Virus record (IMG/VR): IMGVR_UViG_3300035188_000861
Coordinates: 1 to 23,337 of that record
From: a virus
Length of the DNA: 23,337 bases
Direction: 5' to 3' (one strand)
The position numbers were made by a program, and so were the translations under genes. Below, piece by piece: positions 508-23,234 of the stretch (position 1 is its first letter; every line of letters begins with the position of its first letter). The notes under the pieces were generated by a model. The model had not been told where the DNA came from. It was given only the letters and a program-made list of their open reading frames with translations, and did no database searches.

Positions 508-1914
508 ATGACCAAGCTAGCCGGAACGAAGTTCACCCTTGGGCAGGACTTCCGCATCACCGACCGCCAGGTGATCGAGCTGTCGCAGAGCGCGACCGGC
601 AGCGTCAGCGTGCTGGACTACGGCGCCGTGGGCGACGGGGTGACGGACGATACGGCGGCCCTGCAAGCGGCGGTCGCGCAGATTGCGATTAGCGGCGGAA
701 CGCTTGTCGTAGACGCGCCCGTGGCGGTATCGACGACGCTTGTGCTTAAAGACAACGTTGATGTGCGTTTTGGGCCGAGCGGCAAGATTGTCTGGATTGG
801 ATCTCGCAGTGGCATAGCCGTACAAACCGACCCGGCGGATGTGGTCAAGAGCGTGCGCTGGGAAGGTTTGACGATAGACACCGGAGCAAGCTTCACGGGC
901 ACCGCTCTGGCAATCCATTCAGCCCACAATATATGGGCCGACGCGATTACGCTCATCACGACCGGGACAACTAGCAAAGCGCTGACGTTTGCAGCAGATT
1001 CGACCGGCGGAGATTCCGCACTGACCAAGCGCAACATTACGCAATGCTGGTTCGGCGCAATCGTGCAACAAGGTACCTGCGGTACCGCGATAGAATTTTC
1101 GGGCGTTTCGTCAGGGTATGACTCGACCCCGCAGGTTGTGACGCTGAACACGTTTGCGAGCGTGTTTGTTGAAAACGCTTACGCTTACGGAATCAATTTC
1201 AAGAACTGGACAGACAATAATACGTTTAGCGGCTACACGCGGCTGTCGATTGTAGGAAATAACTCTATTGGCGTTCAGATTGGCGGCACCAGTGACACGA
1301 CGAATCTGGGCGTTTACTCAAATACCTTTGTACAGCTTGCGGTTGACGCATTTGGTACATATACCGGCCGCCAAGGTGTAGTGCCATCTCGGTCAAAACT
1401 GACCAAGATTGTAACTTTGTACGCAAATCCGGAGCCCGAGGGCGGCGTATTAGTGCCTGATGCGTACGCGCAAAGTTACGAGGTCGATCATCAGATTGAT
1501 TCAAGCGCGTCGGTTGTCAAATATCAGCGCGGGGTGTCGCACGTCCAAGGTTTCGGTTTCAATAGCAGCGCGCTAATCACGCTCAATGACGACGCTGCTG
1601 CATCAATCACGGTGTCTGACCCGTCGGCGGCCGGAAGCAACATTTGCGGAATTGTCAGCATTGCGACCGACAGCGCAAACGGAAACGGCAGCGGGTGGTT
1701 TAAGGTAAAACCGTCGGGCGGCGCTGGCGCGTCTACAGTGAAGCATTCTGGCGACGTCTACTTCGAAATGACAACCGGCGCACTGTCTGGGACAACCGGG
1801 ACGGATGTGCGAGTAACGGTTTCCGCGCATAACGACGGCAAGTTGTACATTGAAAACAGAATCGGCTCGGCAATCAATGCGCGAATTACTATTTTCGCGC
1901 TGACGCAAACGTGA
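508..1914 (+). CDS. Tailspike / receptor-binding protein, pectate-lyase-like beta-helix
   Basis: The 468-residue product has a short N-terminal region (residues 1-32) followed by the hallmark opening of phage beta-helix spikes, VLDYGAVGDGVTDDTAALQ (about residues 35-53). This is the Pectate_lyase_3 signature. The rest is rich in Asn, Thr, Gly and Ser with alternating hydrophobics, as expected for a right-handed parallel beta-helix and a beta-rich trimerising C-terminus. Such proteins bind, and often cleave, surface polysaccharide; no catalytic pair can be assigned by eye. A CGGAG ribosome site lies six bases before the ATG. Base composition is odd: the first 210 bases are about 67% GC like the rest of the phage, whereas most of the body is about 45-55% GC. 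That points to a swapped receptor-binding domain. The stop overlaps the GTG of the next gene. Confidence 0.85.
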   Translation: MTKLAGTKFTLGQDFRITDRQVIELSQSATGSVSVLDYGAVGDGVTDDTAALQAAVAQIAISGGTLVVDAPVAVSTTLVLKDNVDVRFGPSGKIVWIGSRSGIAVQTDPADVVKSVRWEGLTIDTGASFTGTALAIHSAHNIWADAITLITTGTTSKALTFAADSTGGDSALTKRNITQCWFGAIVQQGTCGTAIEFSGVSSGYDSTPQVVTLNTFASVFVENAYAYGINFKNWTDNNTFSGYTRLSIVGNNSIGVQIGGTSDTTNLGVYSNTFVQLAVDAFGTYTGRQGVVPSRSKLTKIVTLYANPEPEGGVLVPDAYAQSYEVDHQIDSSASVVKYQRGVSHVQGFGFNSSALITLNDDAAASITVSDPSAAGSNICGIVSIATDSANGNGSGWFKVKPSGGAGASTVKHSGDVYFEMTTGALSGTTGTDVRVTVSAHNDGKLYIENRIGSAINARITIFALTQT

Positions 1915-2282: not shown

Positions 2283-3287
2283 ATGAATCAAGACACGACC
2301 ACGCCTGCGGAACCGCAGGAAGTCGCGTATCACACGACCGAGGACGCCGCACAGGCGCTTCTGGCGCGCTGGAACAGCAGGGCGGACACGCCTACGGCTG
2401 ACGACAGCGAGTCCGAGGCGCAAGACGCGGATGAGCCCGCAGACGAACCCGTTGCAGAGCAGGCCGACGAGGCTACGGCAGACGCAACGGGCACCGAGGC
2501 GCGCGAAGTTGACGAGGTCGAGATCGACGTCGCAGGCGAGAAGTTCAAGCTGCCCAAGACGTTGCAGGAACAGGCGCAGCGAATCCAGCAGAAGGCCAAA
2601 GACCTCGAGGCTGGCACGACGCGCAAGTTCCAGGAGGCCGCGGAGATTCGCAAAGCCGTCGAGGCCGAGCGCGAGCTGACGTCGTTCATCGGCAAGCTCG
2701 CGGTCCAGCAGACCGACGCACTGGCGGATCTACGGTCGACGGTGCGGGAAGTCGAGCGGCTGCAGGGGATGGACCTGCAATCGCTGCACGACACCGATCC
2801 GGTGACCGCGTCGAAGGTGACGGCACGGCTCGTCCAGTTGCAGGCCGCTCAACGGCAGATTGAACAGCAACTCGCGCAGGCGACGCAGCAGATCAAGCAG
2901 GCCGAGCAGCAGCACCGCGCGCAGATGATGGAGCGCGGGCAAGCGCAGCTGGCGAAGCTCGTCCCGAACCTCACCGACGCAACCAAGCAGGAACTCGCGC
3001 AGTACATCGCGCAGCGGTCGCTGACGCCCGAAGGGCAAGCGGCACTGTACGACCCCGAGGTTGTCGCGGCGTTTCACGACGCTAAGCGATATCGGGACGC
3101 GATGGCCGCGAAGCCTGTTGCCAAGCGGACGATCGAACCGTCCAAGACGCTGAAGCCTGGCACGGCTGCAGCACCGTCAACGAGCGCGAAAGCGCGCGTC
3201 GAGGCTCTGAAGACCCGGGCGTTCAAGACCGGATCGACGGAGGACATCGCCGCTGCGTTGCTCGCGCGAGCGAATCTTAGGAAGTAA
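2283..3287 (+). CDS. Capsid scaffolding protein
   Basis: The 334-residue product has the usual build of a podoviral scaffold. There is a very acidic, low-complexity N-terminal third (Asp/Glu/Ala-rich, about residues 30-85), then a long Gln/Ala/Glu-rich coiled coil (about residues 95-220). A basic Lys/Arg/Ala-rich C-terminus (about residues 270-334) would contact the inside of the capsid shell. It lies directly upstream of the major capsid gene with a two-base gap, the standard order. Scaffolds guide procapsid assembly and are then released. No protease motif is seen. The ATG follows an AAGG motif about eight bases upstream. Identification rests on composition and position; scaffold sequences are poorly conserved. 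Confidence 0.85.
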   Translation: MNQDTTTPAEPQEVAYHTTEDAAQALLARWNSRADTPTADDSESEAQDADEPADEPVAEQADEATADATGTEAREVDEVEIDVAGEKFKLPKTLQEQAQRIQQKAKDLEAGTTRKFQEAAEIRKAVEAERELTSFIGKLAVQQTDALADLRSTVREVERLQGMDLQSLHDTDPVTASKVTARLVQLQAAQRQIEQQLAQATQQIKQAEQQHRAQMMERGQAQLAKLVPNLTDATKQELAQYIAQRSLTPEGQAALYDPEVVAAFHDAKRYRDAMAAKPVAKRTIEPSKTLKPGTAAAPSTSAKARVEALKTRAFKTGSTEDIAAALLARANLRK

Positions 3288-3289
3288 TC

Positions 3290-4285
3290 ATGGCCGAATC
3301 GGCTACCAAGACGTTTGACCTTGAAGGCATCGCAGAAGACTTCGAGGACATGATCTTCAACATCTCGCCTATGGACACTTGGATGCTGTCCAACGCCAAG
3401 CGAGTGAAGGTCACCAACACCACGCATCAATGGCTCACCGACTCGCTCGCGAGCGCGTCGGCGAGCAACGCTCAACTCGAGGGCGACGACGCCACCTTCA
3501 CGACCGCCACCACCGCGGTGCTGTACAGCAACCAGAGCCAGATCGCCCGCAAGACGATCGACGTCTCGCGTACCGCCGACACAGTGAGGAAGCACGGTCG
3601 CGGCGAGACCTTCGCCTACGAGATGGCGAAGAAGATGAAGGAGATCAAGCGCGACGTCGAAGCGACGCTGCTCTCCAACAACGCGTCGACCGCCGGCTCG
3701 GTAGCAACCGCCCGTGTGGCGGCCGGTCTCGCGGCGATGATCGGTGGCCCGCTCGGCGCCGGCAATCGCGTGATCGCTGGCAGCGGCACGACCAGCACCG
3801 TCCCCGGCTACGCGTCGGGGCAGTGGGCGGCGTCGGTGGACGGCACTGCTGCGGCGCTCACCGCGCTGACGGAGACGCACCTGAAGTCCGCGCTAGAACT
3901 GGCGTGGACGGACGGCGGCGACCCGTCGGTGATCCTTGTGTCGCCGTTCCAAAAGGCTCGCATCGCGACCTTTGGCGGTGCGCAGGCGTTCGCTGGGTTT
4001 TACAACCCGCAGGCAAAGGCGGTGCAAGGCGCGGTGGTCGGCGCGGTCGACGTGTACGTGAGCGACTTTGGTAACCACAAAGTCATGCTTTCGCGGTACA
4101 TGCCGGCGGGCCGAGTGTTCTGTGTCGACCCCGACTACGTCGCGGTGGGCTTCCTTGACTCGTTCAAGGTCGAGCAGCTCGCGAAGACCGGGGACGGCAC
4201 GAAGGGCATGATCGTCTGCGAGTTCACGACCGTGGTGCAAAACCCGGACGCGCACGCGCAGATCATCGGCGCGACGACCTCGTAA
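3290..4285 (+). CDS. Major capsid protein, SU10/DUF5309-like HK97 fold
   Basis: The 331-residue product begins with a segment (about residues 9-35) carrying the pattern G-I-x-E-D-x-x-D-M-I-x-N-I-S-P-x-D-T. This is typical of the DUF5309/SU10-type major capsid family, whose members adopt the HK97 fold. The following H-x-W-x-T-D motif also fits, as does the conserved late region around VILVSPFQKARIATF. The length is normal for the family and no N-terminal prodomain is visible, consistent with a separate scaffold just upstream. AGGAAG sits seven bases before the ATG. A terminator behind the gene would help make this the most abundant late product. Confidence 0.9.
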   Translation: MAESATKTFDLEGIAEDFEDMIFNISPMDTWMLSNAKRVKVTNTTHQWLTDSLASASASNAQLEGDDATFTTATTAVLYSNQSQIARKTIDVSRTADTVRKHGRGETFAYEMAKKMKEIKRDVEATLLSNNASTAGSVATARVAAGLAAMIGGPLGAGNRVIAGSGTTSTVPGYASGQWAASVDGTAAALTALTETHLKSALELAWTDGGDPSVILVSPFQKARIATFGGAQAFAGFYNPQAKAVQGAVVGAVDVYVSDFGNHKVMLSRYMPAGRVFCVDPDYVAVGFLDSFKVEQLAKTGDGTKGMIVCEFTTVVQNPDAHAQIIGATTS

Positions 4286-4328: not shown

Positions 4329-4658
4329 ATGAAAACTATCCACACCGAAACCGATCCGCATACCGGCCTGCGCCGCGAGGTGCAGACCGACGGCCGCGGC
4401 GTGCGCGAAGTCACAAGCTCAAACGCGGCGACCACGCAGCAGACGCTCGACCATCTGCAGCGCCTGCGCAGCGACGAGAGCTACGCGAAGGAAGGCATCC
4501 GCGAAGGCTGGCATCACGCCGCCAGCGTGCCGGCTGAAGTCTGGCTGCAGTGGAAGAACGAGGGCTTCGACATCTTCACAGCCCACCCGAGCGAGATCAT
4601 CAAGCGCCTGCGGGCGCGAGAGTACGAGAAGCTGCGTGCAACCAGCGGACGCATCTGA
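4329..4658 (+). CDS. Small phage protein downstream of capsid, unknown function
   Basis: 109 residues from ATG 4329, only a few bases after the capsid terminator; no strong ribosome site is seen. The N-terminus is polar (Thr/Arg/Glu). The C-terminal half has the pattern VPAEVWLQW...GFDIF...EIIKRLR, ending in LRATSGRI. That ending recalls small conserved proteins found near head genes of many podoviruses, but I cannot name a family. There are no membrane segments or cysteines. The end overlaps the next gene's GTG start by 23 bases. A role in head completion is a guess from position. Confidence 0.75.
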   Translation: MKTIHTETDPHTGLRREVQTDGRGVREVTSSNAATTQQTLDHLQRLRSDESYAKEGIREGWHHAASVPAEVWLQWKNEGFDIFTAHPSEIIKRLRAREYEKLRATSGRI

Positions 4659-6135
4659 CCGCCTGCTGCAGCGCGCCGCCGCGCTGATCGAGTCCGACCC
4701 GGACGAGGCGCATCGGCTGCTGCTGGAGCGCCTGCATAAAGATCCGGACGACGCGAAAGTCCTGTTCTTGATCGCGCGCCTGTACGTACACAGCGGACGG
4801 TTCGCGATTGCGCTGCATTTGCTGCGCCAGGTCGTGCGGCTCGCACCGCACCGTGACCACGCGTGGAACGACCTCGGCATGGTGCTGTCGTCGCTGCAGC
4901 GGTTCCGCGAAGCGCGGGACGCGTTCCTCGAGGCGGTGAAGCGTGCGCCGCGCGAGGCCGGGCACATCGCCAACGTGGCGATGACGTACCTAGAAGAAAG
5001 CAACTGGCGCAAGGCGCTGGAATGGGCCGACAAAGCGCTTGCGATCGACTCGCAGCAGCGCGGCGCACTGCAGACGCGCGGCTTTGCGTGTCTTGCGCTC
5101 GGCGACTGGTGCGAGGGCTGGGCGGGCTACGAGAAGGTTCTGGGCGGCCCGTATCGCAAGATCGTGAAGGTGCGCGACGAGCCGGTGTGGGACGGCAAGC
5201 GCGTTGAAAAGCTGTTCGTCTACGGCGAGCAGGGCATCGGCGACGAAGTGATGATGGCGTCGTGCCTGCCGGACGTGATGCGCGACGTCGGGCACGTCGT
5301 GCTGGAGTGCGACGAGCGGCTCGAGGGTCTGTTCCGCCGCAGCTTCCCGCAGGCGAGCGTCTACGGCACGCGTAGAGCCAAGGGCACGCCCGTGTGGGTC
5401 GATGAGCACCAGTTCGACGCCGGCTGCGCGATCGGGCAACTGCCGCAATACTACCGGCCAACGCCCGCGAGCTGCCCCGGCACGCCGTACCTAGTGGCCG
5501 ACCCGGAGCGCCGCGTGCAGTGGCGGGCGCTGCTGGACTCGCTGGGGGCGCGGCCGAAGATCGGCCTCGCGTGGAGCGGCGGCAGACGGGTGACGAACTC
5601 GGCCGGCCGTGCGATCGGGCTGGAAGCGTTCCGGCCGCTGATTGAGTCGGTGGACGCGGACTTCGTGAGCCTGCAGTACAGCAAGGGCACCGAGGACGAG
5701 ATCGCCGCCTCGGGCCTGCCGGTGCGCCACTGGCCGCGTGCGGTGGCGAGCAACGATTACGACGACGCCGCCGCGCTGGTGGCCGAGTTGGACTGCGTGG
5801 TGGGCGTGCATACCGCCGCCATGCATTTAGCGGGCGCCTTAGGGACGCCTGCGACGGTCCTGGTGCCTAGCAAGACGCTATGGATCTGGTCAACGCCGGG
5901 AGACGCCCCCGGCGACATGCCCTGGTATCGCTCGGTGCGCCGCTTCAATCAGCGCCCTGACGAGCCGTGGGACAAGACGGTACGGCGGTTGCTGAGTGAT
6001 CCCGAACATCTTCATTGGATTCGACCAGCGCGAGGCGGCAGCGTTCCACGTCTGCGTGCAGAGCATCCTAGAGACGGCGACGGTGCCGGTGGCGATCACG
6101 CCGCTGACGCTTTCCTCGCTGACTTGGTTTCCTAA
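4636..6135 (+). CDS. TPR protein fused to GT9/heptosyltransferase-like glycosyltransferase
   Basis: Starts at GTG 4636 inside the end of the previous gene. Residues 7-140 hold about four tetratricopeptide repeats, with G/A-L-x-x-A and A-x-P spacing and 34-residue periods. Residues about 190-450 form a GT-B type domain. It includes the conserved FVYGEQGIGDEVMMASCLPD stretch (194-213), and a VVGVHTAAMHLAGALG motif (about 387-402) typical of the nucleotide-sugar pocket in heptosyltransferase-like TPR proteins. A PWYRSVRRF segment near 430 follows. The natural protein seems to end near residue 450. The last 47 residues run out of frame across the start of the next gene and look like shadow translation (Arg/Gly/His-rich). 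It heads a four-gene sugar-modification cassette. Confidence 0.85.
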   Translation: MQPADASDRLLQRAAALIESDPDEAHRLLLERLHKDPDDAKVLFLIARLYVHSGRFAIALHLLRQVVRLAPHRDHAWNDLGMVLSSLQRFREARDAFLEAVKRAPREAGHIANVAMTYLEESNWRKALEWADKALAIDSQQRGALQTRGFACLALGDWCEGWAGYEKVLGGPYRKIVKVRDEPVWDGKRVEKLFVYGEQGIGDEVMMASCLPDVMRDVGHVVLECDERLEGLFRRSFPQASVYGTRRAKGTPVWVDEHQFDAGCAIGQLPQYYRPTPASCPGTPYLVADPERRVQWRALLDSLGARPKIGLAWSGGRRVTNSAGRAIGLEAFRPLIESVDADFVSLQYSKGTEDEIAASGLPVRHWPRAVASNDYDDAAALVAELDCVVGVHTAAMHLAGALGTPATVLVPSKTLWIWSTPGDAPGDMPWYRSVRRFNQRPDEPWDKTVRRLLSDPEHLHWIRPARGGSVPRLRAEHPRDGDGAGGDHAADAFLADLVS

Positions 6136-6718
6136 CCACGCGGACGGCACGAACGCGTTCATCACGTCGCGTTATCTCGTGCCGGCGCTGCAAGACTTCC
6201 GGGGCTGGGCGCTGTTCATCGACTCGGACACGCTGTTCCGAGAGGACATCGCCAAGCTTTGGGGCTTGCGGGACGACCGATACGCGGTGCAGTGCGTGCG
6301 GCACGAGTACACGTCGAAGGCGCGCAGGAAGTACAGGGGCTCGCCGATTGAGGCGGACAACCTTGATTACCCGTTCAAGAATTGGTCAAGCGTGATGCTG
6401 CTGAACTGCGGGCATCCGGCGATGCGCAGGCTCACGCCGGACTACGTGGCGCGCAGTACGTCGCAGCACTTGCATCGATTCGAATGGCTGGACCACTCGC
6501 TGATCGGCGGGTTGTGTTCCACGTGGAATCATCTGATCGGCGAGTATCCGCGGCGCGACGACGCGAAGCTTGTGCATCACACGCTGGGCATCCCGGGTTT
6601 TGGAAACTACGTCGATTGCGAACACTCGCGCGAGTGGCACCAGACGCTGCTGCGAGCAAACGAAGTGATCGGCGAGTCGCCCGCCGAGATGCTGCGCCGC
6701 GCTGAGGTGCGGGCGTGA
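5996..6718 (+). CDS. GT8-like glycosyltransferase (GT-A fold, DxD motif)
   Basis: GTG 5996 gives a natural N-terminus, IPNIFIGFDQRE, typical of this glycosyltransferase group. The 240-residue protein has a metal-binding DSD motif (residues 76-78, in FIDSDTLF). It also has a YLVPAL segment before it, an NWSSVMLLNC acceptor-site segment (about residues 124-133), and a late HHTLGIPGF motif whose His could be the third metal ligand. These are features of GT-A retaining enzymes such as family 8. It would move a sugar from a nucleotide-sugar to an unknown acceptor in the cytoplasm. The start lies 140 bases inside the preceding reading frame. The end overlaps the next GTG by four bases. Confidence 0.85.
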   Translation: MIPNIFIGFDQREAAAFHVCVQSILETATVPVAITPLTLSSLTWFPNHADGTNAFITSRYLVPALQDFRGWALFIDSDTLFREDIAKLWGLRDDRYAVQCVRHEYTSKARRKYRGSPIEADNLDYPFKNWSSVMLLNCGHPAMRRLTPDYVARSTSQHLHRFEWLDHSLIGGLCSTWNHLIGEYPRRDDAKLVHHTLGIPGFGNYVDCEHSREWHQTLLRANEVIGESPAEMLRRAEVRA

Positions 6719-7536
6719 AGTCGGTGACGTTTCGGGTGTTTAACCTTACCTGGCCGTCGTCACGTCTGCGTGCTGCCATTCCGCAGCGTGCGCTGGCCGA
6801 TGTGGGCGTGCGGCAGGGCCGGGACGTGCTGGTGATCGGCAAGCACGGCTGGGACTGGGACGTCGAGACGTGCGGCTATAAGCGCATCGTCTACGACGTC
6901 TGCGACTCGCACTGGAGCGATCGCTGGCGCGATGAAGTCATCGACTACTGCGGGCGGGCGGACGCGGTGACATGCAACTCGCACGTGATGGCCGACGAGA
7001 TCAAGGCGCACACGGGCCGCGATGCGTGGATCATCCCCGATCCGTACGAAGCGCCCGAGGGCGAGCCGCGCATTAATGAGCGGCTGTTGTGGTTTGGCTG
7101 GCATTGGAACGCGCAGGCGCTGCAGCCGTGGGCGCCGAAGTTGGTGGGGCGCGACGTCACGATCCTGATCGACAACGTCGATGCGCACGAACTGGCCCCG
7201 GGCGTGCGCGTCGTGCCGTGGTCGCCCGAGGCGATGGACGCCGAGTTTGAGCGCGCAGGGCTCGTGATTCTGCCGACCGACATGCGGCCGAAGGCCAAAA
7301 GCGGTAACCGCGCGATCGAGAGCATCCGGCGCGGCGTGTTCCCGATCTGCGGCCCGCTGCCGGCGTATGCGGACCTGGGCGTGTACATCGGCGACATCGA
7401 TCGCGGCGTCGACTGGGCGCTGGCGAACCGCGGCGAGGTGCTCAAGCGCATTCGCGCGGCGCAGGAATACGTGCGGGCCGAGTACAACCCCGCGCGAATC
7501 GGGCGGCTGTGGCGGGCCATGCTGGACACGCTGTAA
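6715..7536 (+). CDS. GT-B glycosyltransferase, GT4-like
   Basis: Starts at GTG 6715 (GTGA overlap with the previous stop). The 273-residue protein opens with a beta-strand and an SSRLRAAIPQRAL segment. It continues with a nucleotide-fold pattern (DVLVIGKHG, then IVYDVCDSHW). In the second half is KSGNRAIESIRRGVFPI (about residues 199-215), which fits the E-x(n)-E donor-sugar region of family 4 GT-B enzymes. It is somewhat shorter than usual GT4 enzymes (350-400 residues), so the N-terminal acceptor domain is reduced. The target is unknown. Within the cassette it probably acts after or beside the GT8-like enzyme on the same glycan. Confidence 0.8.
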   Translation: MKSVTFRVFNLTWPSSRLRAAIPQRALADVGVRQGRDVLVIGKHGWDWDVETCGYKRIVYDVCDSHWSDRWRDEVIDYCGRADAVTCNSHVMADEIKAHTGRDAWIIPDPYEAPEGEPRINERLLWFGWHWNAQALQPWAPKLVGRDVTILIDNVDAHELAPGVRVVPWSPEAMDAEFERAGLVILPTDMRPKAKSGNRAIESIRRGVFPICGPLPAYADLGVYIGDIDRGVDWALANRGEVLKRIRAAQEYVRAEYNPARIGRLWRAMLDTL

Positions 7537-7538
7537 GC

Positions 7539-8060
7539 GTGCTGCGGCTGAATCTAGGCAGCGGCAAGAAGCGCCCTCAGGGCTACGTAAACGTCGACCT
7601 GCCGGGCAGCGGCGCGGACGTCGAGTGCGACATCCGCGCGCTGCCGTTCGCCGATGGTGTCGCCGACGAGGTGATGGCGATTCACGTGCTTGAGCACATC
7701 CCGGTGGCCGACGTGGCGGCGGTCGTTGCCGAGTGGGCGCGGGTGCTGGCGCCGGGCGGGCAGATGGTGCTCGAGCTGCCCTGCCGCGAGAAGGTGTTCG
7801 GGTTGATTGCGCAGGGCGTCACCGACCCGCGCCTGGTGCTGTTTCCACTGTACGGCGACCCGCGCACGCACCGCTCGGTCGCTGATGTTCACCGCTGGCT
7901 GTGGTCGAGCGTCGAGGTCGCGCTGCTGATGCGCGACGCGGGGCTGGTCGACGTCACCAGCGAGCAGCCGCAGTTTCACGTCCCGATGCGCGACATGCGA
8001 ATCACCGGAGTCAAGAGTGCCGATCAACACGAAAGCGACGCTACGAACGGCGGTTGCTGA
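7539..8060 (+). CDS. SAM-dependent methyltransferase (class I)
   Basis: I choose GTG 7539, three bases after the previous stop, because it gives the standard N-terminus LRLNLGSGKK...GYVNVDL. This is motif I of class I methyltransferases, here at residues 2-21. An upstream in-frame ATG at 7509 would overlap the previous gene and add ten residues of no visible value. Further motifs are DVECDIRALPF (motif II-like), ADEVMAIHVLEHI (motif IV) and LAPGGQMVLELP (the post-motif strand typical of Methyltransf_11). It has 173 residues, short but complete for the core fold. It closes the glycosyltransferase cassette, so a sugar O-methylation or capping role is plausible but unproven. It overlaps the next gene by 44 bases. 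Confidence 0.85.
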   Translation: MLRLNLGSGKKRPQGYVNVDLPGSGADVECDIRALPFADGVADEVMAIHVLEHIPVADVAAVVAEWARVLAPGGQMVLELPCREKVFGLIAQGVTDPRLVLFPLYGDPRTHRSVADVHRWLWSSVEVALLMRDAGLVDVTSEQPQFHVPMRDMRITGVKSADQHESDATNGGC

Positions 8061-8613
8061 CTACCTGCAGCGCGGCGACTTGAACGTGCACATCGACACG
8101 TTCATCGAACTCGCCACCGCGCGGTTCAGCGACGAGTTGCGCACGCCCGAGATGGAGACGGTCGCAACCACGACGCTTACCGGCGAGTGGACCGCGCTGC
8201 CGACGGACTTTCGCGCGATGCGGCTGCTGGAAGCCGGCGGGCAGATCCTCGAGTACCGCACGGCGTGGCAGCTTCAGCGCATGATCCAGAACGCCGCGCG
8301 CCCGCATGTGCCGGTGTTCAGCATCCAAGACATGCAGTTTCGCGTGTACCCGTTCCCGACGAACTCCACCGTCGAACTCACCTACTACGCAGCACTGCCG
8401 GCGCTGTCGCTGGATGCGTCGAGCAATTGGCTGCTGCTGAAGCGCCCGGACGTCTACCTGCACGCGGCCATCGCTCAGGCGCGGATCTTCCTGCACGACG
8501 ATCAGCGCGTCGTGCTCGCGCAGGGGATGACAGACAAGTACATCGCTGAAGCCAATCGTTCCGCGCGCCACATCGCGATCGGTGCGGCGCCGCTGCAGGT
8601 CAGGGCCGCCTGA
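8017..8613 (+). CDS. Head-to-tail adaptor protein, SU10-like
   Basis: Starts at GTG 8017 with GGAG eight bases upstream. The 198-residue protein has the layout of podoviral adaptors that sit under the portal. An N-terminal helical bundle (LRTAVADYLQRGDLNVHIDTFI, then ATARFSDELRTPEME) is followed by a beta strand with W-x-A-L-P-x-D-F, a recurrent pattern in this family. A second beta region (FRVYPFPTNSTVELTYYAALP) and a helical C-terminus (DVYLHAAIAQARIFLHD) follow. This matches the SU10-type adaptor group found with DUF5309-like capsids, consistent with the capsid gene here. It resumes the structural operon after the sugar cassette. The assignment rests on pattern and context. Confidence 0.8.
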   Translation: MPINTKATLRTAVADYLQRGDLNVHIDTFIELATARFSDELRTPEMETVATTTLTGEWTALPTDFRAMRLLEAGGQILEYRTAWQLQRMIQNAARPHVPVFSIQDMQFRVYPFPTNSTVELTYYAALPALSLDASSNWLLLKRPDVYLHAAIAQARIFLHDDQRVVLAQGMTDKYIAEANRSARHIAIGAAPLQVRAA

Positions 8614-11600
8614 TGGCTACGTACTACTTCGACAGCATCTCGGGCAACGACTCGAATACGGGTGCGTCGTGGGCTCAGGCGTGGCAGGGCGACACCAAGC
8701 AGATCGCAACGTACATCGCCTCGGGCAACATCATCTGGCTACGCGGGTCGTGGTCGAACCAGGTCGGCGGCACGTTCACGGGGCTGTCAGGGTTCGAGCT
8801 GCGCGTGCATCCTGACGACGGCGCGCTGCTGGATTGTCGGACTAGACATAGCTCGGGATGGTCGAACGTCAGCAGCAGCAAGGTCTGGAAGAAGTCATTC
8901 AGCTACCAGACGCACCGGCTGTTCCTTGGCAACGGGCAGGCAACGGGGTTCACGGAAGGCTCGGACGTCGCCAAGCGGCAACTAGTTTCGACGTCGGGGT
9001 CGTGGACGACTACGGCCGCAAGCGACGGGCAAGTGGTGACGGTGCTGGATGCCGGTTCGGTGAACCAGGCGCAATTCTGGTATTGGGACGGCGTGTCGGG
9101 CACGCTGTACGTGCGCTCGACGAACAACAGCACGAACCCCGACACCGCTTATGGCGGGGTATGGACGTGCGACGGGCGCGATACCGGGTATGCGGATCGC
9201 CGCCGCTGGACGCCGTTCGAGTTCGTCAGTTGCACGAGCCTGTACATCGGCGCGGTTGAAATCCGCGGCGCGGTGCGGCCGATGCGGTTGGTCAATTGCT
9301 CGGGGACGGTGAGCCCGTTCGTGACCGACTTCCCGCATTACCAGTGGGAGACCCTTGCGCTGTACGGCTCCAGCAGCGGCTCACGCCCAACGCTGACTGT
9401 CGAGTCGCCCCAAGTGCTGATGCGCCGTCCGAACTTCACGGACGACATCATGCAGTCCAACAACGGCGGCAACTTTGACGACGGGAACGGGCAGCGCCAG
9501 CAAGGCGGCGCGGATTGTGTGGTGCTGGCCGATCGCTGGCAGTCGCTGTCCATTTACGGCGGCACGGTGCAAGGCAGCGTCCACGGCGCAATTGCGTCGC
9601 AGTGGTATCACGGGCTGGACGTGGCCGGCACGGTGCTGATCCGCGGCACGTACATCGATTCAAGGCTGGGGCGCTATGCGCGCGGGCTGAATCTGCAGCA
9701 CGCGTCCGGAAAGACGATCAACGCGATCACGTTCGAGCGCATCACTGTCGACGCGCAGAACATTAGCTCGCAAGTGAATATGTCGAACCTGACGATACGG
9801 GACTCGGTGTTCCGCAACGGCAGGCTGGGTTGGTTCTCGACTGACGGCTCGACCCCGACGTACATCGACAAATACGACCCGACGTTCAACAGCGCCTCGA
9901 GGTGGCGCAACTCGCACGCGCTTGACGTGTCTCGAATCGACGGCAATGCGATCTTCGGCGGGCCGATGACGTTCGATAACATCGTGTTCGCGGGACAGCA
10001 CGATGCAGTATTCGCGTATGTGCATTACGGCAGCGGCCAGAACTCGCTCGACACGCGGGTTCGCAATTGCTGGTTCATCCGAAACCCGGCGCTAGCGGGC
10101 GCACTGCTGGGCGATCGCGTGTTCTGGAACGACAACGAGCCGTATAGCATCACGTTCGAGAACAGCAACAAGCACAGCGGCTACTCGACGGTGCCTAGCG
10201 GCACGACGACGATGAGCGCGGCCGAGGTGACGCTGTACAGCGCTCGTGCGCAGGTCTCCTCGTTCACGTTTGCGCCGACCGCAGCGACGGTGACGGCGGG
10301 CGGATCGCAGGCGGTGACGGTGACCGCGCGCAACAACGTGGGCGCGGCAGTAGCGGACTTCGCGGGCCTAGCGACTACCTCGTCTGCGTCCGGAGTGGCA
10401 ACGGCCACGGCGCCGACGACGCCGACGGGTGCGACGGGCCAGGTCGCGATGACGGTCGACGGTGTCGCGAACGGCACCGCGACGATCACGCTCAATGCGC
10501 TGATGGGCGCGGCGTCGTCCACGCTTCCGGTAACGACGGGCAGCGGTGTCCCGACTGGCGTGCGGGTGCTGCAGTCGGCCATTGCTACGGCCGAGGCGGC
10601 GGCGTCGGTGTCGTGTTCGATGTCGGCGCTGTCGACGAACAGCAAGCTCTACGCGTTTGCTGGCGGCTATCTAGACGGGGCGACCGGCGTGACGATCACC
10701 GACTCGCGCAGCCCCGCAGCGACATGGACGGCCATCGACGGCGGGTTTCATACCGGCGGCACATCGACCAGCATCGGCATCTTCGCGCTGTCCAGCCCGA
10801 TATCTTCCGGCACGCCGTCGATCACGGTAACCGCGACGCCGACAAAGTCGCCAGCCGCGACGAATGCGTATATGTCGCTCATCCTGGTCGAAGTGGCCGA
10901 CGCGGGGACGGTGCAGGCAAATGCCTTTGCGATCGGGCAAAGCGCGACGCCGACGGTCGATCTGCCGTCGATCACTGCGCCCGCGCTCGTACTGGCTGGC
11001 ACGGGGCAGTCTGGCGTAGGAGCGCCCATCATCGCGCCCGGTACCGGCTTTACCCTGCTGCAAGTCAAGTACGCCAACGCCGGCATTGGCGTGCAGTCGA
11101 AGAAGGTGAGCGCCACCGGCCAGAACGACCCAACGTTCTCGCTGATCTCGACCGTCGATGGGGTCGCGTCGTCTACCATCGAATGGCCGGCCGTAGCGTT
11201 TGCGCTGAACGAATCGATCCTGACGGCGCCTGCGATCACGACGAACACGCTCGCGGGCGCGACGACCGGGGTGGCGTACTCCGCGACGCTGACCGCGACT
11301 GGCAGCGCAACGATCACGTGGGCGGTGACGGCTGGGGCCTTGCCCGCAGGGTTGTCGCTGGCCGCCAGTACGGGCGTCATCAGCGGCACGCCGACGACAG
11401 TCGAGACAGCGTCGTTTACGGTGAGCGCTACAAACGGCGCGGGCGTTGCGGTCAAGGCGCTATCGATTGCGGTCGCGGTTCCGACGACCGCGCCTGCCAT
11501 CACGACCGCCTCGCTGCCTAACGGGCAGGTTGGCGTGCTGTACACGCAGCCGCTTGCAGCGACGGGCACCGCGCCGATTACCTGGGCAATCACTAGCGGC

Positions 11601-11855
11601 ACGCTGCCGCTCGGGCTGGCGCTGAACACCAGCACCGGGGTTATCAGCGGCACGCCGACAACGGCTGGCACGTCGCCGTTTACGGTGCAGGCGTCGAACT
11701 CGGTTTCTACTGCGGCAGCCGTGCTCTCAATTGCGGTCGCTGCCGCGCCTGAGCCACCGCCGCCGACGCCCGAGCCGCCGCCGTTACAGGGCCAGTGGAC
11801 CCGTGTGCCGCGTGACGCCGAGGTGTGGATTCGAGTGCCGAGGGACGAGCCGTGA
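8613..11855 (+). CDS. Large tailspike/fibre: beta-helix, Ig-like domains, tandem C-terminal motif
   Basis: The ATG overlaps the preceding stop (TGATG). The 1080-residue product starts directly with a beta-helix opening (YYFDSISGNDSNTGAS, residues 4-19). This runs to about residue 535 with short strands and many Asn/Ser/Thr. A bacterial Ig-like segment follows (about 547-645: FTFAPTAATVTAGGSQAVTVTA). Next is a beta-sandwich-like region (about 648-865). Two tandem putative-Ig (He_PIG) domains (about 872-958 and 960-1045) come next, then a Pro/Glu-rich linker (about 1048-1060) and a duplicated 10-residue motif at the C-terminus. Unlike most spikes there is no separate N-terminal anchor, so the C-terminus may attach it to the virion. 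It probably recognises host surface glycan or carries several adhesion modules. Confidence 0.85.
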   Translation: MATYYFDSISGNDSNTGASWAQAWQGDTKQIATYIASGNIIWLRGSWSNQVGGTFTGLSGFELRVHPDDGALLDCRTRHSSGWSNVSSSKVWKKSFSYQTHRLFLGNGQATGFTEGSDVAKRQLVSTSGSWTTTAASDGQVVTVLDAGSVNQAQFWYWDGVSGTLYVRSTNNSTNPDTAYGGVWTCDGRDTGYADRRRWTPFEFVSCTSLYIGAVEIRGAVRPMRLVNCSGTVSPFVTDFPHYQWETLALYGSSSGSRPTLTVESPQVLMRRPNFTDDIMQSNNGGNFDDGNGQRQQGGADCVVLADRWQSLSIYGGTVQGSVHGAIASQWYHGLDVAGTVLIRGTYIDSRLGRYARGLNLQHASGKTINAITFERITVDAQNISSQVNMSNLTIRDSVFRNGRLGWFSTDGSTPTYIDKYDPTFNSASRWRNSHALDVSRIDGNAIFGGPMTFDNIVFAGQHDAVFAYVHYGSGQNSLDTRVRNCWFIRNPALAGALLGDRVFWNDNEPYSITFENSNKHSGYSTVPSGTTTMSAAEVTLYSARAQVSSFTFAPTAATVTAGGSQAVTVTARNNVGAAVADFAGLATTSSASGVATATAPTTPTGATGQVAMTVDGVANGTATITLNALMGAASSTLPVTTGSGVPTGVRVLQSAIATAEAAASVSCSMSALSTNSKLYAFAGGYLDGATGVTITDSRSPAATWTAIDGGFHTGGTSTSIGIFALSSPISSGTPSITVTATPTKSPAATNAYMSLILVEVADAGTVQANAFAIGQSATPTVDLPSITAPALVLAGTGQSGVGAPIIAPGTGFTLLQVKYANAGIGVQSKKVSATGQNDPTFSLISTVDGVASSTIEWPAVAFALNESILTAPAITTNTLAGATTGVAYSATLTATGSATITWAVTAGALPAGLSLAASTGVISGTPTTVETASFTVSATNGAGVAVKALSIAVAVPTTAPAITTASLPNGQVGVLYTQPLAATGTAPITWAITSGTLPLGLALNTSTGVISGTPTTAGTSPFTVQASNSVSTAAAVLSIAVAAAPEPPPPTPEPPPLQGQWTRVPRDAEVWIRVPRDEP
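11228..11753 (+). repeat. Tandem He_PIG-type Ig-like repeats in the large spike
   Basis: Two coding repeats with an 88-codon period each contain the pattern PAITT...G..Y...L.ATG...ITWA...G.LP.GL.L...TGVISGTPTT. An identical 17-base core (11379-11395 and 11643-11659, exactly 264 bases apart) encodes the ISGTPT part. Such domains are common, easily exchanged decorations on phage surface proteins. Confidence 0.85.
11796..11852 (+). repeat. Duplicated W-x-RVPRD motif at spike C-terminus
   Basis: Residues 1062-1071 and 1072-1080 read WTRVPRDAEV and WIRVPRDEP. This is a 10-residue tandem repeat placed after a proline-rich linker at the very end of the protein. It looks like a short docking tag, but that is inference. 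Confidence 0.8.
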
Positions 11856-13309: not shown

Positions 13310-13551
13310 GCCGCATCAGCGTCGAGGGCCGGATTGAGAGCCTGCCCGTCGAGGTGCAAGAGGTTCTGCGCGACATCGTGCGCGAGTTGAACGACATCCG
13401 CCGTCGCGTGCAGCGCGGCGAGGGCGATCCGGACGGCGTCATCACTGGGGTTCGCGGCGACATCTGGCAGCGCACGGACGGGGGTGGTGGCACCACGTTG
13501 TACGTGTTTGAAGGGACAGACGGGGCGCTTACCGGGTGGACCGCGCTCTAA
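13306..13551 (+). CDS. Small tail-associated protein with fibre-type C-terminal domain
   Basis: Starts at ATG 13306 in an ATGA overlap. Residues 1-36 form a charged helix (RIESLPVEVQEVLRDIVREL, likely coiled coil). Residues about 39-81 have the pattern GDPDGVITGVRGDIWQRTDG, then GGTTLYVFEGTD...TGW. This is a short domain I recognise at the C-terminus of many phage tail-fibre and tail-associated proteins. Alone with a coiled coil, it could be a trimeric tail component or a fibre tip/adaptor. The TAA (13549-13551) overlaps the stop codon of the opposing HNH gene. Confidence 0.8.
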   Translation: MSRISVEGRIESLPVEVQEVLRDIVRELNDIRRRVQRGEGDPDGVITGVRGDIWQRTDGGGGTTLYVFEGTDGALTGWTAL

Positions 13552-14216
13552 TGGTTCAGCCGGCCGATACGAGTGCGCGTCGGGCGAAACAGCCGCTCGC
13601 CGGTGTCTCCGCGTCGGATGCGGTTTTCCAGTGTCGCGTACGTGACGCCGATCAAGTCCGCAACGTCTGCCATTGGAAGTTGCTGGCCTTTGTACTCAAG
13701 ATAAAGTGTCCCTCTCTTGTTCCTTGCTTGCTGCGCTCGCGTCGCCCAACGACAGTTCCCGGGCGCGTAGTCTCCGTTAACGTCGATGCGATCAAGGGTG
13801 TGAGCGGCACTCGGGCGTGGACCCATGTCGGCGTAGAAGTTTGCGAATTGCTGCCAGCGTTCGCAGATGGCAATGCCTCGCCCGCCGTAGTTTTGAAAAT
13901 CTTGGTAGGACGCTTTTGTGCAGCGTTCGCGCATCTTCGCCCAAATGTTGTACTCGGGCGCATTTCTCATGCCATGCGTGGTATTCGCTGCCTTCAGGAT
14001 CTCGGCGATAGCGCAGCCGCACGACTTGATGCGCCCGGCTCGCAAGCTGGTGCCGAGGACGCGCTTTTCGGTGCCGCAGTCGCAGCGAACTCGCCAGCAA
14101 AACTCGGCTCGATACTTGCCTTCGGTGTGGAGCACGACGAGGCGGCCGAAACGCCGGCCCGTCATGTCGATGAATCGGTGGTGCGGCTTCTTGCCGCTAT
14201 GATTCGAGTCAGCCAT
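13548..14216 (-). CDS. HNH-like endonuclease with zinc finger and C-terminal HTH
   Basis: The true start is the ATG at 14214-14216, with GAGAGG seven bases before it. The open frame further upstream is antisense of the next gene. The 222-residue protein has an N-terminal GRRFGRLVV segment and a four-cysteine zinc site (C45, C47, C66, C68). A central nuclease-like domain contains NYGGRGIAICERW (109-121), LDRIDVNGDYAPGNCRWAT (141-159) and Q-x(3)-NKR, the pattern of phage-borne HNH-type intergenic nucleases. A C-terminal helix-turn-helix (MADVADLIGVTYATLENRI, about 182-200) would bind DNA. It runs against the structural operon and is less GC-rich (about 53-57% in lines I counted) than its neighbours, suggesting independent acquisition, perhaps as a homing-type element. 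Confidence 0.85.
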   Translation of the reverse strand: MADSNHSGKKPHHRFIDMTGRRFGRLVVLHTEGKYRAEFCWRVRCDCGTEKRVLGTSLRAGRIKSCGCAIAEILKAANTTHGMRNAPEYNIWAKMRERCTKASYQDFQNYGGRGIAICERWQQFANFYADMGPRPSAAHTLDRIDVNGDYAPGNCRWATRAQQARNKRGTLYLEYKGQQLPMADVADLIGVTYATLENRIRRGDTGERLFRPTRTRIGRLNH

Positions 14217-20551: not shown

Positions 20552-21553
20552 TCAACCCACTTTCGGTCGCTTCATCACCGGCCCCGCGACGATCGGCACG
20601 ACCCGGTCGCGCAGGTAGATGCGGGTCGTCTTGGCGTCGGTGTGCCCGAGCAGCGCTTGGGCGTCGATGCCCTGCGCGCGGGCGTCGGTCGCGGCCATCG
20701 CGCGAATGTCGTGAACCGTGGCGTCGGGAATCTTCGCTGCCGTGCGGGCCTTGACCCAGCGTTTGCGGATCATCGCGTACGTCAGCGGCTTGAACCCGAA
20801 TAAGTAAGACGGACGTAACGCGTTCGGCTTCAGCGCACGGGCCGCTGCGACCGCATCGCGCAGTTCGGTCGTCCACGCGACCAGCAACTCGGCGCCGGTC
20901 TTTTGCTGCCGGAACATGATCCCGTCGTCGCTGATGTCGGCCGTCTTGATGCCGGCCACGTCCATGACGCGCTGGCCGGTCGCGTAACACAAAAGCATCA
21001 CCGCTCGCAGCAGCGCGTCCGCGTTCGCGTGGATGCGCTGGAACTCGGCGGTCGTGAGCCTGCGCGTGCGCGGCGGCATCGGGATTCGGTCGATGTCAGC
21101 GGCGACGTTCGTCTCCAGCAGCTCGTCTTCTACGGCTTCGGCCAGGATCAGCTTCAGCACGGTCAACGTGCGATTGGCGACGCCCGGTGTGTCCTGCAAG
21201 TCGCGCCGAAGCTGCTTTACGTCGCGCGGCGTCAGGTCGGCCGGGTCGAAGAGTTTCAGCATCTCGCGCAAGATGTCCGCGCACGCGCGGTACTGGCGCT
21301 GCGTCTCGGCGGCTTTGGGCTTTCCGGTCTGCCGGTCTTTCAGCACGCGCGGCAGCATCGTATCGATCAGCGCCGGCATCCCGCGCGCCGTGGCGGCGGC
21401 AGGCGCTGCGATCAGCCGCGCGTACTCACGCAGCGCCGGCTGTAGTTCGGTCCCGAGCCTGCGCCACACGCCTCGGCGGACGAGGTAGTACGCGCCGTGC
21501 TTGTGGTACATGCACCCCGGTAGGTGCCGATCCTTTTTGCGCGGGCGGTTCAT
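20552..21553 (-). CDS. Tyrosine-family integrase
   Basis: The 333-residue product has all catalytic residues of tyrosine recombinases: R195 (GQRVMDV), K218 (RQQKTG), H281 and R284 (HDIR), H304 (LLGHTD) and the nucleophile Y313 (RIYLR). Residues 1-45 (KKDRHLPGCMYHKHGAYYLVRRGVW) match the arm-binding N-terminus of phage integrases, with the core-binding domain at about 58-155. AGGAGG seven bases before the ATG is an optimal ribosome site. It is translated from inside the end of the DUF4224-like gene, and its 3' end faces the lysis genes and the candidate attP. It would insert and excise the phage genome, with helper factors. Confidence 0.93.
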   Translation of the reverse strand: MNRPRKKDRHLPGCMYHKHGAYYLVRRGVWRRLGTELQPALREYARLIAAPAAATARGMPALIDTMLPRVLKDRQTGKPKAAETQRQYRACADILREMLKLFDPADLTPRDVKQLRRDLQDTPGVANRTLTVLKLILAEAVEDELLETNVAADIDRIPMPPRTRRLTTAEFQRIHANADALLRAVMLLCYATGQRVMDVAGIKTADISDDGIMFRQQKTGAELLVAWTTELRDAVAAARALKPNALRPSYLFGFKPLTYAMIRKRWVKARTAAKIPDATVHDIRAMAATDARAQGIDAQALLGHTDAKTTRIYLRDRVVPIVAGPVMKRPKVG

Positions 21554-21708: not shown

Positions 21709-22551
21709 TCAGTCGGTACACGCGCAGTCTTGCAGCGCGTCGTCGAAGTCGAACAGTTCGCCGTGGTGGGTCGCCATGCGATGCATCTCGGCGTAGCCGG
21801 GGCGGTCTGAGCGGAACATGCCGCCATTCACGACCGACGCATTCGTGATGCTTTTCTCCATTTTTATCCACCATGTCGCCCGACTTGGGCTCTCGCGAAT
21901 CAGCGACAGGATCTGCGCCCCACCCTTGAGGAAGCACAAGTCACAGTTCCCGTGCGCCGTCTTGCCGTTGTGGTTCGGCAGACGAAGGTCAAAGCTATTC
22001 CGCATCCAAAACTCGCTGATGTCCGCAACGCTAATTCCAGAGTCAGCCAGCGGCACGACTCGATCAACGCCGCCTGACCCGCCCGACGGGTCCGCGCGCA
22101 CCTTTGCGACGCGACGCTGCTCATCGGCGCGCAGGCCGACGGCACATTGATACTCCGGCATCCCAGCCGACCGCATGTACCGCATGATCGTTTTGATCTT
22201 CATCTCTGCGGTGCAGAATCGAGCGACTGGGTTCGGCAGAAAATTCCGGTCTTTGATTACGGCGGCGAAGGGCTCGCCGTCGCGGCTCGCGGTGTCGTAG
22301 CTCACGACTTCAAACTGCGCCTTAGAGCGGTATTCCAGCCACGTAATCGGCACCGACCACCGATCACTGCACTCCTGCACGAAATCCAGCGTTTCGGGCA
22401 TCTCCTTTCCCGTATTCGCGAACACCACCACCACGTCGTCGGGCAGCGTCCCGCCGTGCGCCTGCAGAATGCGCCAGAGCATGTAGCCGCTCGTGCGACC
22501 GCCCGAGAACGAGATGCACGCCGGGCCCTCGATGCGAAACGGATCGCGCAT
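21709..22551 (-). CDS. PAPS-reductase-like PP-loop protein
   Basis: The true start is ATG 22551, overlapping the previous stop (TAATG); upstream frame is shadow. The 280-residue product has the PP-loop SGGRTSG (residues 16-22), FANTGKEMPETLDFV (44-58), the RFCTAEMKIK motif with C113, and a CDLCFLKG motif (C203, C206). It ends with CACTD (C276, C278). These are features of the phosphoadenosine phosphosulfate reductase superfamily (CysH, DndC). The CxxC pair with C113 could bind an iron-sulfur cluster. Temperate phages often carry such genes near early functions. Whether it acts in sulfate assimilation, nucleic-acid thiolation or something else is not known. Confidence 0.88.
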   Translation of the reverse strand: MRDPFRIEGPACISFSGGRTSGYMLWRILQAHGGTLPDDVVVVFANTGKEMPETLDFVQECSDRWSVPITWLEYRSKAQFEVVSYDTASRDGEPFAAVIKDRNFLPNPVARFCTAEMKIKTIMRYMRSAGMPEYQCAVGLRADEQRRVAKVRADPSGGSGGVDRVVPLADSGISVADISEFWMRNSFDLRLPNHNGKTAHGNCDLCFLKGGAQILSLIRESPSRATWWIKMEKSITNASVVNGGMFRSDRPGYAEMHRMATHHGELFDFDDALQDCACTD

Positions 22552-23234
22552 TACACCGTCCACCAAGTGCGCGGTGAGCGTGGCGCGCTCGGCTTCTCCC
22601 GCTGCGCCTTTGCCCGCGCCTCCAGCGCCGCCCGCAGCGCGTCGATCGCCTGTCTTCCAAACAGAGCGTCGGACGGGCGTGGGCTGTCGTCCATAAAACG
22701 GCTCAGTGCCTCCAGCGCCAGCCGCATCGCCTTGCGCATCCTGTCGCGGTCGTCTCGGCACCGCCGATACATAGCAATCGACTCGGCGTCGCTGGCCTCT
22801 GCCGCCGCGAGCGCCTCGCGGGCGTCGGGCGGGGTGGTGTAGAGCGGCTCTGCCCATTCTTGCTCGGGTTCATAGCCCGGCGCGTACAGCGGCGCTTCGA
22901 TATGGCCGTACTTGCGCAGGGCGTCGATCGAGCCCTTGAGAATCAGCGCCACCGGCTCCGTAGTCAGTGCGGGCGGGGCCGTATAGAGGGGCACATCATC
23001 AGCCGCCCGTGGCTCGCAGTAGACCGGCGACAGCCTCTCGCCTGCGTCCCAGTCGGCACGCGACATCCACACCACAGGGTCCGCGCCCAGTGCATCCCGT
23101 TGCGCCCGATCCGCCTCAACGGCGGCGCGGGCATAGTCACGAATTGCGCGCAGTGCCCTGTCTGACCAGCGCATCGTGTGCGGGTCGGGGTGGTCATGCG
23201 CGTGCAGCGGCGGCAAGGTGATGTCGTCACTCAT
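22551..23234 (-). CDS. Early phage protein with PLYTxPP motifs, unknown function
   Basis: Starts at ATG 23232-23234 in an ATGA overlap and ends overlapping the PAPS-reductase-like start. The 227-residue product has an N-terminal acidic/aromatic segment (HPDPHTMRWSDRALRAIRDYARAAVEADR). Two copies of a VPLYTAPP / EPLYTTPP motif (about residues 80-87 and 130-137) follow, then a helical C-terminus ending AIDALRAALEARAKAQ. This PLYTAPP pattern is common in proteins from phages and prophages of proteobacteria; its role is unknown. No catalytic motif or membrane segment is seen. Confidence 0.8.
   Translation of the reverse strand: MSDDITLPPLHAHDHPDPHTMRWSDRALRAIRDYARAAVEADRAQRDALGADPVVWMSRADWDAGERLSPVYCEPRAADDVPLYTAPPALTTEPVALILKGSIDALRKYGHIEAPLYAPGYEPEQEWAEPLYTTPPDAREALAAAEASDAESIAMYRRCRDDRDRMRKAMRLALEALSRFMDDSPRPSDALFGRQAIDALRAALEARAKAQREKPSAPRSPRTWWTV
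22622..22641. repeat. 20-bp direct repeat, copy 1 (copy 2 at 23245-23264)
   Basis: An identical 20-base segment (CCAGCGCCGC...AGCGCG on the plus strand) occurs here and at 23245-23264, 623 bases apart. Each copy encodes the AxALRAAL end of one of two consecutive minus-strand genes. Confidence 0.8.

Follow-up and report, generated by a model that had tools for sequence, protein, structure and literature searches.

What is a block of sugar-modifying enzymes doing between the capsid gene and the head-tail adaptor gene of a tailed phage? The question is raised by IMG/VR record IMGVR_UViG_3300035188_000861, whose complete sequence of 23,337 bp is referred to here as the window. Three glycosyltransferases (GTs) and a methyltransferase are encoded there at 4636 to 8060, and we propose, with a probability of about 0.5, that this cassette is a lineage-specific, virion-linked protein-glycosylation module of SU10-type podoviruses, whose acceptor is most likely a virion protein. 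The slot that holds the cassette is laid out as follows:

3290 to 4285, + strand: SU10-type major capsid protein, the upstream anchor of the slot (PF17236, SU10_MCP, 9.4e-87; phrog_1328, 1.9e-87)
4329 to 4658, + strand: g109, a small conserved gene of 109 amino acids (aa), the left border of the slot (phrog_3982, 1.7e-7)
4636 to 6135, + strand: TPR-GT, a candidate protein glycosyltransferase with tetratricopeptide repeats (TPRs) (TPR_2, 1.7e-13; PF01075 in relatives; predicted model)
5996 to 6718, + strand: GT-A-type, GT8-like glycosyltransferase with a DxD motif (phrog_28018, 5.9e-33; profile match to WbbM)
6715 to 7536, + strand: GT-B-fold, GT4-like glycosyltransferase (predicted structure and Foldseek)
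7509 to 8060, + strand: class I S-adenosylmethionine (SAM) methyltransferase, a candidate sugar-capping enzyme (PF08241, Methyltransf_11, 8.4e-11; phrog_6636, 1.9e-10)
8017 to 8613, + strand: SU10-type head-tail adaptor, the right border of the slot (PF24175, SU10_adaptor, 5.3e-26; phrog_2941, 5e-45)

The four enzyme open reading frames (ORFs) are open and consecutive, they overlap or abut, and all four start with GTG; for the methyltransferase the real start is possibly another in-frame GTG, at 7539. The same four-enzyme block is present in a near-identical longer contig (L217, 35.6 kb, 99.9% identity). The original prediction, made from the DNA letters alone, had described four coupled GTG-start genes between a small head gene and the adaptor. 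Their intactness and order are borne out, and the enzyme classes it named (TPR with GT9-like, GT8-like with DxD, GT-B, class I methyltransferase) are recovered by Pfam, profiles and predicted models. Its label of head gene for 4329 to 4658 is not supported: the phrog_3982 match assigns no function, and the phiM5 homologue found with our own g109 profile, gp15, is not among the proteins marked as detected in the particle proteome, although several of its neighbours are.

It is the build of the first enzyme that suggests a protein acceptor. Its N-terminal part is a TPR superhelix covering residues ~6-168 (from Pfam TPR models, with helices running to residue 168 in the predicted model), and a GT-B/GT9-like domain follows at residues ~170-462. 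Among 18 family members, 13 match PF01075 (GT9) at E <= 1, the best of them at 1.1e-4; the window protein scores 19.2 bits, under the gathering score of 22. When the predicted model (predicted local distance difference test, pLDDT, 87.1; predicted template modelling score, pTM, 0.81) is compared with the PDB by Foldseek, SPINDLY and OGT are the top matches. Both enzymes place a sugar on proteins, and their TPRs choose the acceptor. TPR-GT is predicted to share the two structural features of family GT41, the N-terminal TPR superhelix and the C-terminal GT-B domain, as seen in the O-GlcNAc and O-fucosyl transferases of that family, including the bacterial XcOGT. Its catalytic domain differs in leaning to GT9: TPR-GT has no GT41-type Pfam match, and a PDB search with the profile of the catalytic domain gives no chain at E <= 1, despite the many OGT chains present there. 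The TPR-GT and GT8-like genes overlap out of frame by 140 bp (5996-6135). A long overlap of this kind recurs in window-type lineages (~120-155 bp when counted up to where the GT8 domain starts), and the TPR-GT residues coded within it, after ~465, have low model confidence and are modelled as disordered.

The companion enzymes can be classed with varying precision. The GT8-like protein has no Pfam match, to GT8 or otherwise, and its profile finds WbbM in the PDB at 4.6e-4, the GT8 entry 5gvv reaching only E = 0.63. Within its DxD motif, D76 and D78 are invariant by alignment column in 17 sequences, some members reading DGAD. Relatives of this enzyme also lie upstream of the terminase genes in L036-L038, L028 and L031. 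For the enzyme at 6715-7536, sequence searches of Pfam, PHROGs, NCBIfam and the PDB give nothing significant; its model, of moderate confidence (pLDDT 72.7), shows a GT-B fold and matches SenB, PimA, Gtf3/GtfC and others (Foldseek, E down to 6e-7), so the product is modelled as a GT-B fold near GT4 enzymes.

The position of the cassette is close to fixed. Two IMG/VR searches bear on it, each covering the best 80 matches and leaving more remote relatives elsewhere unsampled: a survey with the capsid protein as query, in which the stretch from capsid to adaptor was catalogued, and a reverse search with the catalytic GT9-like domain of TPR-GT alone. In the reverse search, g109 lies directly upstream of TPR-GT in 70 of the 71 loci with enough upstream DNA, and the adaptor lies downstream in all 70 testable loci; in L177, g109 and TPR-GT are separated by a GT8-like gene. 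Grouped at 95% identity, the TPR-GT set gives 55 clusters, and at 70% it gives 37; the exact four-gene order of the window is found in eight clusters at either threshold, with further variants. In the capsid survey, every relative with a capsid identity of at least ~46% and enough sequence has TPR-GT between g109 and the adaptor. At ~37-44% identity, nearly all carry in the same slot one unrelated GT of ~210 aa that is Anp1/GT2-like. A few relatives from this sister clade have an empty slot (L045, L046, L048, L049): L003 and L048 align at ~71% on both flanks, and the GT gene is seamlessly absent from L048. The g109 gene follows the capsid gene both in relatives with a GT and in relatives without one. 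Further away, in distant prophages, the slot is possibly empty or holds other large proteins, and the distant TPR-GT matches, in RHph_X2_30 and cyanophages, belong to unrelated phages, the RHph_X2_30 homologue lying outside any capsid-adaptor slot. Among cultured relatives, Pseudomonas phage tf and Venkman pass from g109 directly to the adaptor, while HTVC106P and phiM5 are also without a GT in the slot, phiM5 having an SGNH hydrolase between the capsid gene and g109. The search for relatives with the same cassette, which the original prediction had put forward as a check, shows that the block is no isolated case.

What changes from lineage to lineage is the company that TPR-GT keeps. Slot companions elsewhere are mostly further GTs (GT9, GT2 and GT4-type), FkbM and class I methyltransferases, and radical-SAM(-SPASM) enzymes; the last stand among slot glycan enzymes in L023, L028 and L169, two of them with SPASM. 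The uncultured Manatee Spring phage MW202512.1 has TPR-GT, an FkbM methyltransferase and a GT8-like gene in the same slot, and differs from the window by an HNH gene inside the cassette and the absence of the GT-B enzyme. MW202711.1, from the same source, carries there a single and unrelated GT-A-type enzyme. The slot GTs of both phages are annotated, and no discussion of them was found in the literature. In L013, L138 and L142, a pectate-lyase-like spike lies between the methyltransferase and the adaptor; by eye it resembles window 508-1914, and the spike gene seems to be mobile between two places of the late operon. Judged by all these contents, the slot is a site for accessory virion-related genes, in which TPR-GT became fixed in one lineage.

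The genes are also under constraint. Between the window and L011, whose capsid protein is 91% identical and which has no methyltransferase, the nonsynonymous over synonymous rates (dN/dS) are 0.14/0.74 for the GT9 domain, 0.19/1.10 for GT8 and 0.28/1.00 for GT-B, an overall ~0.15-0.3 that denotes purifying selection. Distances of the GT9 domain follow those of the capsid protein (Mantel r 0.87, p 0.001, n=21 loci); for comparison, the adaptor gives r 0.81 over 21 loci. The TPR part diverges much faster than the GT9 part (mean distance 0.64 vs 0.47), which would fit a role as specificity domain.

Cellular relatives give a further hint about the acceptor. By profile, 33 of 60 Burkholderiaceae genomes have TPR-GT9 homologues, which belong to the same family and have ORFs of roughly 500-900 aa; these homologues differ from the phage gene in being chromosomal and present in several copies per genome. 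In six of the 21 flagellin-bearing genomes, no more than 8 kb separates TPR-GT9 from a flagellin gene, where random placement would give 0.63 such genomes (p ~1e-4). This proximity is supportive only, because the cut-off was chosen after the coordinates had been seen and the genomes are phylogenetically non-independent. In the flagellin transferase Maf-1, TPR domains set the specificity for acceptor and site (PMC13317340). The SPINDLY/OGT-like build, these flagellin-near homologues, the TPRs of Maf-1 and the presumed late co-expression together favour a protein as the acceptor, a virion protein being the simplest case.

Besides the post hoc cut-off, several points weigh against virion protein glycosylation. 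The majority of cellular TPR-GT9 genes do not adjoin flagellin. Whole-chain TM-scores to SPINDLY and OGT are low (0.3-0.4), and part of the structural match comes from the TPRs, a generic kind of domain; with such modest scores and a catalytic sequence other than that of GT41, TPR-GT is best called GT41-like and not a member of that family. Any acceptor of TPR-GT is a candidate only. Ser/Thr enrichment of the capsid protein or g109, considered as a sign of an acceptor, gave no signal in GT-bearing lineages (0.177 vs 0.169 for the major capsid protein, 0.111 vs 0.104 for g109). Some sister-clade slots are genuinely empty (L045, L048), so the GT is dispensable in the wider family, and since the four cultured relatives have no slot GT, the GT-bearing lineage has no cultured member at hand.

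The main rival is that the enzymes act late on a host surface glycan or surface protein (flagellin, pilin or adhesin), blocking superinfection or the loss of progeny by re-adsorption. As cellular TPR-GT homologues lie near flagellin, the protein that is modified could be flagellin or pilin of the host. In gut Gratiaviridae, a GT, a kinase and an ATPase adjoin the capsid gene and are proposed to modify the host capsule (PMC8008677). There too the GT sits inside the head operon, but between portal and capsid genes, and it is a single GT accompanied by a HipA kinase and an ATPase (PMC8008677). The slot also accepts surface-related genes, such as the spike of L013 and L138, and a phage that is probably temperate, to judge from its integrase, would profit from a change of host surface. 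Such remodelling is nonetheless the less likely reading: the cassette comes without membrane anchor, flippase or polymerase, and neither a position in the head module, away from lysogeny genes, nor co-divergence with the capsid protein is needed for it. Serotype conversion of the Gtr type was considered separately and rejected, the four proteins having no strong transmembrane-like segment (a borderline peak of 1.69 is seen in the methyltransferase) and no flippase or polytopic-GT family matches.

It is improbable that the cassette acts on some transient assembly factor or on a small peptide of the phage, so as to regulate head-tail joining instead of coating the virion. The radical-SAM proteins in three slots would suit this role, as would g109, which is always adjacent and whose phiM5 homologue is outside the set marked as particle proteins; yet radical-SAM genes are limited to these three lineages, and viable cultured relatives without slot enzymes retain both g109 and the adaptor. 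Still less probable is DNA hypermodification, in which the GTs would protect phage DNA from restriction by adding sugars to its modified bases. A precedent for such phage GTs is available (Pyle et al., 2024, as cited in PMC12619734), and the related subclade L036-L038 has a Tet/JBP oxygenase beside a separate GT-A-like DxD ORF. However, no Tet/JBP and no thymidylate-synthase-like protein is found in the window-clade contigs (35.6, 40.4 and 45.6 kb, which may be incomplete), the slot cassette occurs with and without Tet/JBP genes, and the architecture of TPR-GT is unlike that of base transferases. The least credible idea is that of moron cargo with no virion-linked role: companions vary and a GT comes and goes seamlessly in the sister clade (L003 vs L048), but position and order are almost invariable, selection is purifying, and the GT9 domain diverges together with the capsid protein. 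The dN/dS values, the nearly fixed slot and this co-divergence led us to reject random cargo or decay, the finding that the original prediction had said would undo it. As an observation apart, the oxygenase and DxD ORF of L036, L037 and L038 lie upstream of the terminase and likely form a DNA-hypermodification cassette of their own, separate from the slot.

For virion protein glycosylation, a sequence of events can be proposed from the enzyme classes and the operon. The cassette would be translated from the late operon alongside the capsid protein and the adaptor. The TPR superhelix of the first enzyme would then dock on a protein acceptor, as in OGT/SPINDLY and in TPR-bearing flagellin glycosyltransferases, and its GT-B domain would attach the first sugar. 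Using host nucleotide sugars, the GT-A and GT-B enzymes would extend the glycan, which the methyltransferase may finally cap. The likeliest acceptor would be a virion protein produced when and where the enzymes are: the capsid protein, g109, the adaptor or a spike. With its changing companion genes, the cassette would build a glycan that varies from one lineage to the next, with effects, for example, on antigenicity, stability or adsorption. We tentatively extend this picture to an uncultured podovirus lineage with an OGT/SPINDLY-like TPR-GT fixed in its head operon, whose virions might as a rule be coated by lineage-specific, multi-sugar, methyl-capped O-glycans.

Mycobacteriophages are already known to have virions glycosylated by phage GTs; their capsid and tail-tube proteins are reported to carry glycans made by these enzymes (PMC12619734, PMC12363180). 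In Che8, Corndog and Myrna, phage GTs are thought or shown to modify the phage's own proteins (PMC12363180), and phage-encoded GTs are likewise present in the window. These are other phages and other hosts, and the virion glycan that is proven there is predicted here; in Maravista, an F1 relative, the GTs are placed towards the 3' end of the genome (PMC11256854), unlike the capsid-adaptor position of the window. No report was found of a GT cassette in the SU10-type capsid-adaptor slot, nor of an OGT/SPINDLY-like phage TPR-GT, in a literature whose coverage is incomplete. The idea of virion modification had been put forward in the original prediction as an uncommon system. A multi-enzyme glycan cassette in the head/tail operon is indeed there, and protein glycosylation is plausible from the SPINDLY/OGT build, the capsid co-divergence and the flagellin-near homologues; it is the word uncommon that has to go, with the cassette slot occupied by TPR-GT throughout a lineage.

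Outside the slot, the window also carries a scaffold gene and an integrase gene, the latter the sign that the phage is probably temperate:

2283 to 3287: scaffold gene, before the capsid gene
20552 to 21553, - strand: integrase

Downstream of the adaptor are more virion genes and then an endolysin. An ORF of 1080 aa immediately 3' of the adaptor (8613-11855) has no PHROG match and, by eye, Ig-like repeats. On the - strand, antisense within the late operon, the C-terminal part of a long ORF (~13548-14210) looks by eye like an HNH/AP2-type homing endonuclease, and a phosphoadenosine phosphosulfate (PAPS)-reductase-like gene (21709-22857, - strand; phrog_424, 7.2e-49) lies near the integrase. The early region of L217 holds, again by eye, a C5 cytosine DNA methyltransferase-like ORF (376-1281, - strand). 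Pyrinomonadaceae was set aside as a host, the closest genome-collection match being a short contig in a metagenome-assembled genome, which is not trusted for a host call.

In the literature found, demonstrated virion glycosylation is confined to a few mycobacteriophages. In the present case, a candidate protein GT of the TPR type holds a nearly fixed place between the capsid and adaptor genes across a widespread lineage of uncultured phages, and its divergence keeps pace with that of the capsid protein. The slot pattern leads to a precise prediction of which phages glycosylate proteins and with which enzyme, and relatives with an empty slot provide natural comparators. If the proposal is true, virion protein glycosylation would be the rule and not the exception outside the phages where it is known, with consequences for the wider biology of the phage particle (antigenicity, stability, adsorption), and these phages would be a source of TPR-guided protein glycosyltransferases with variable sugar tool kits.

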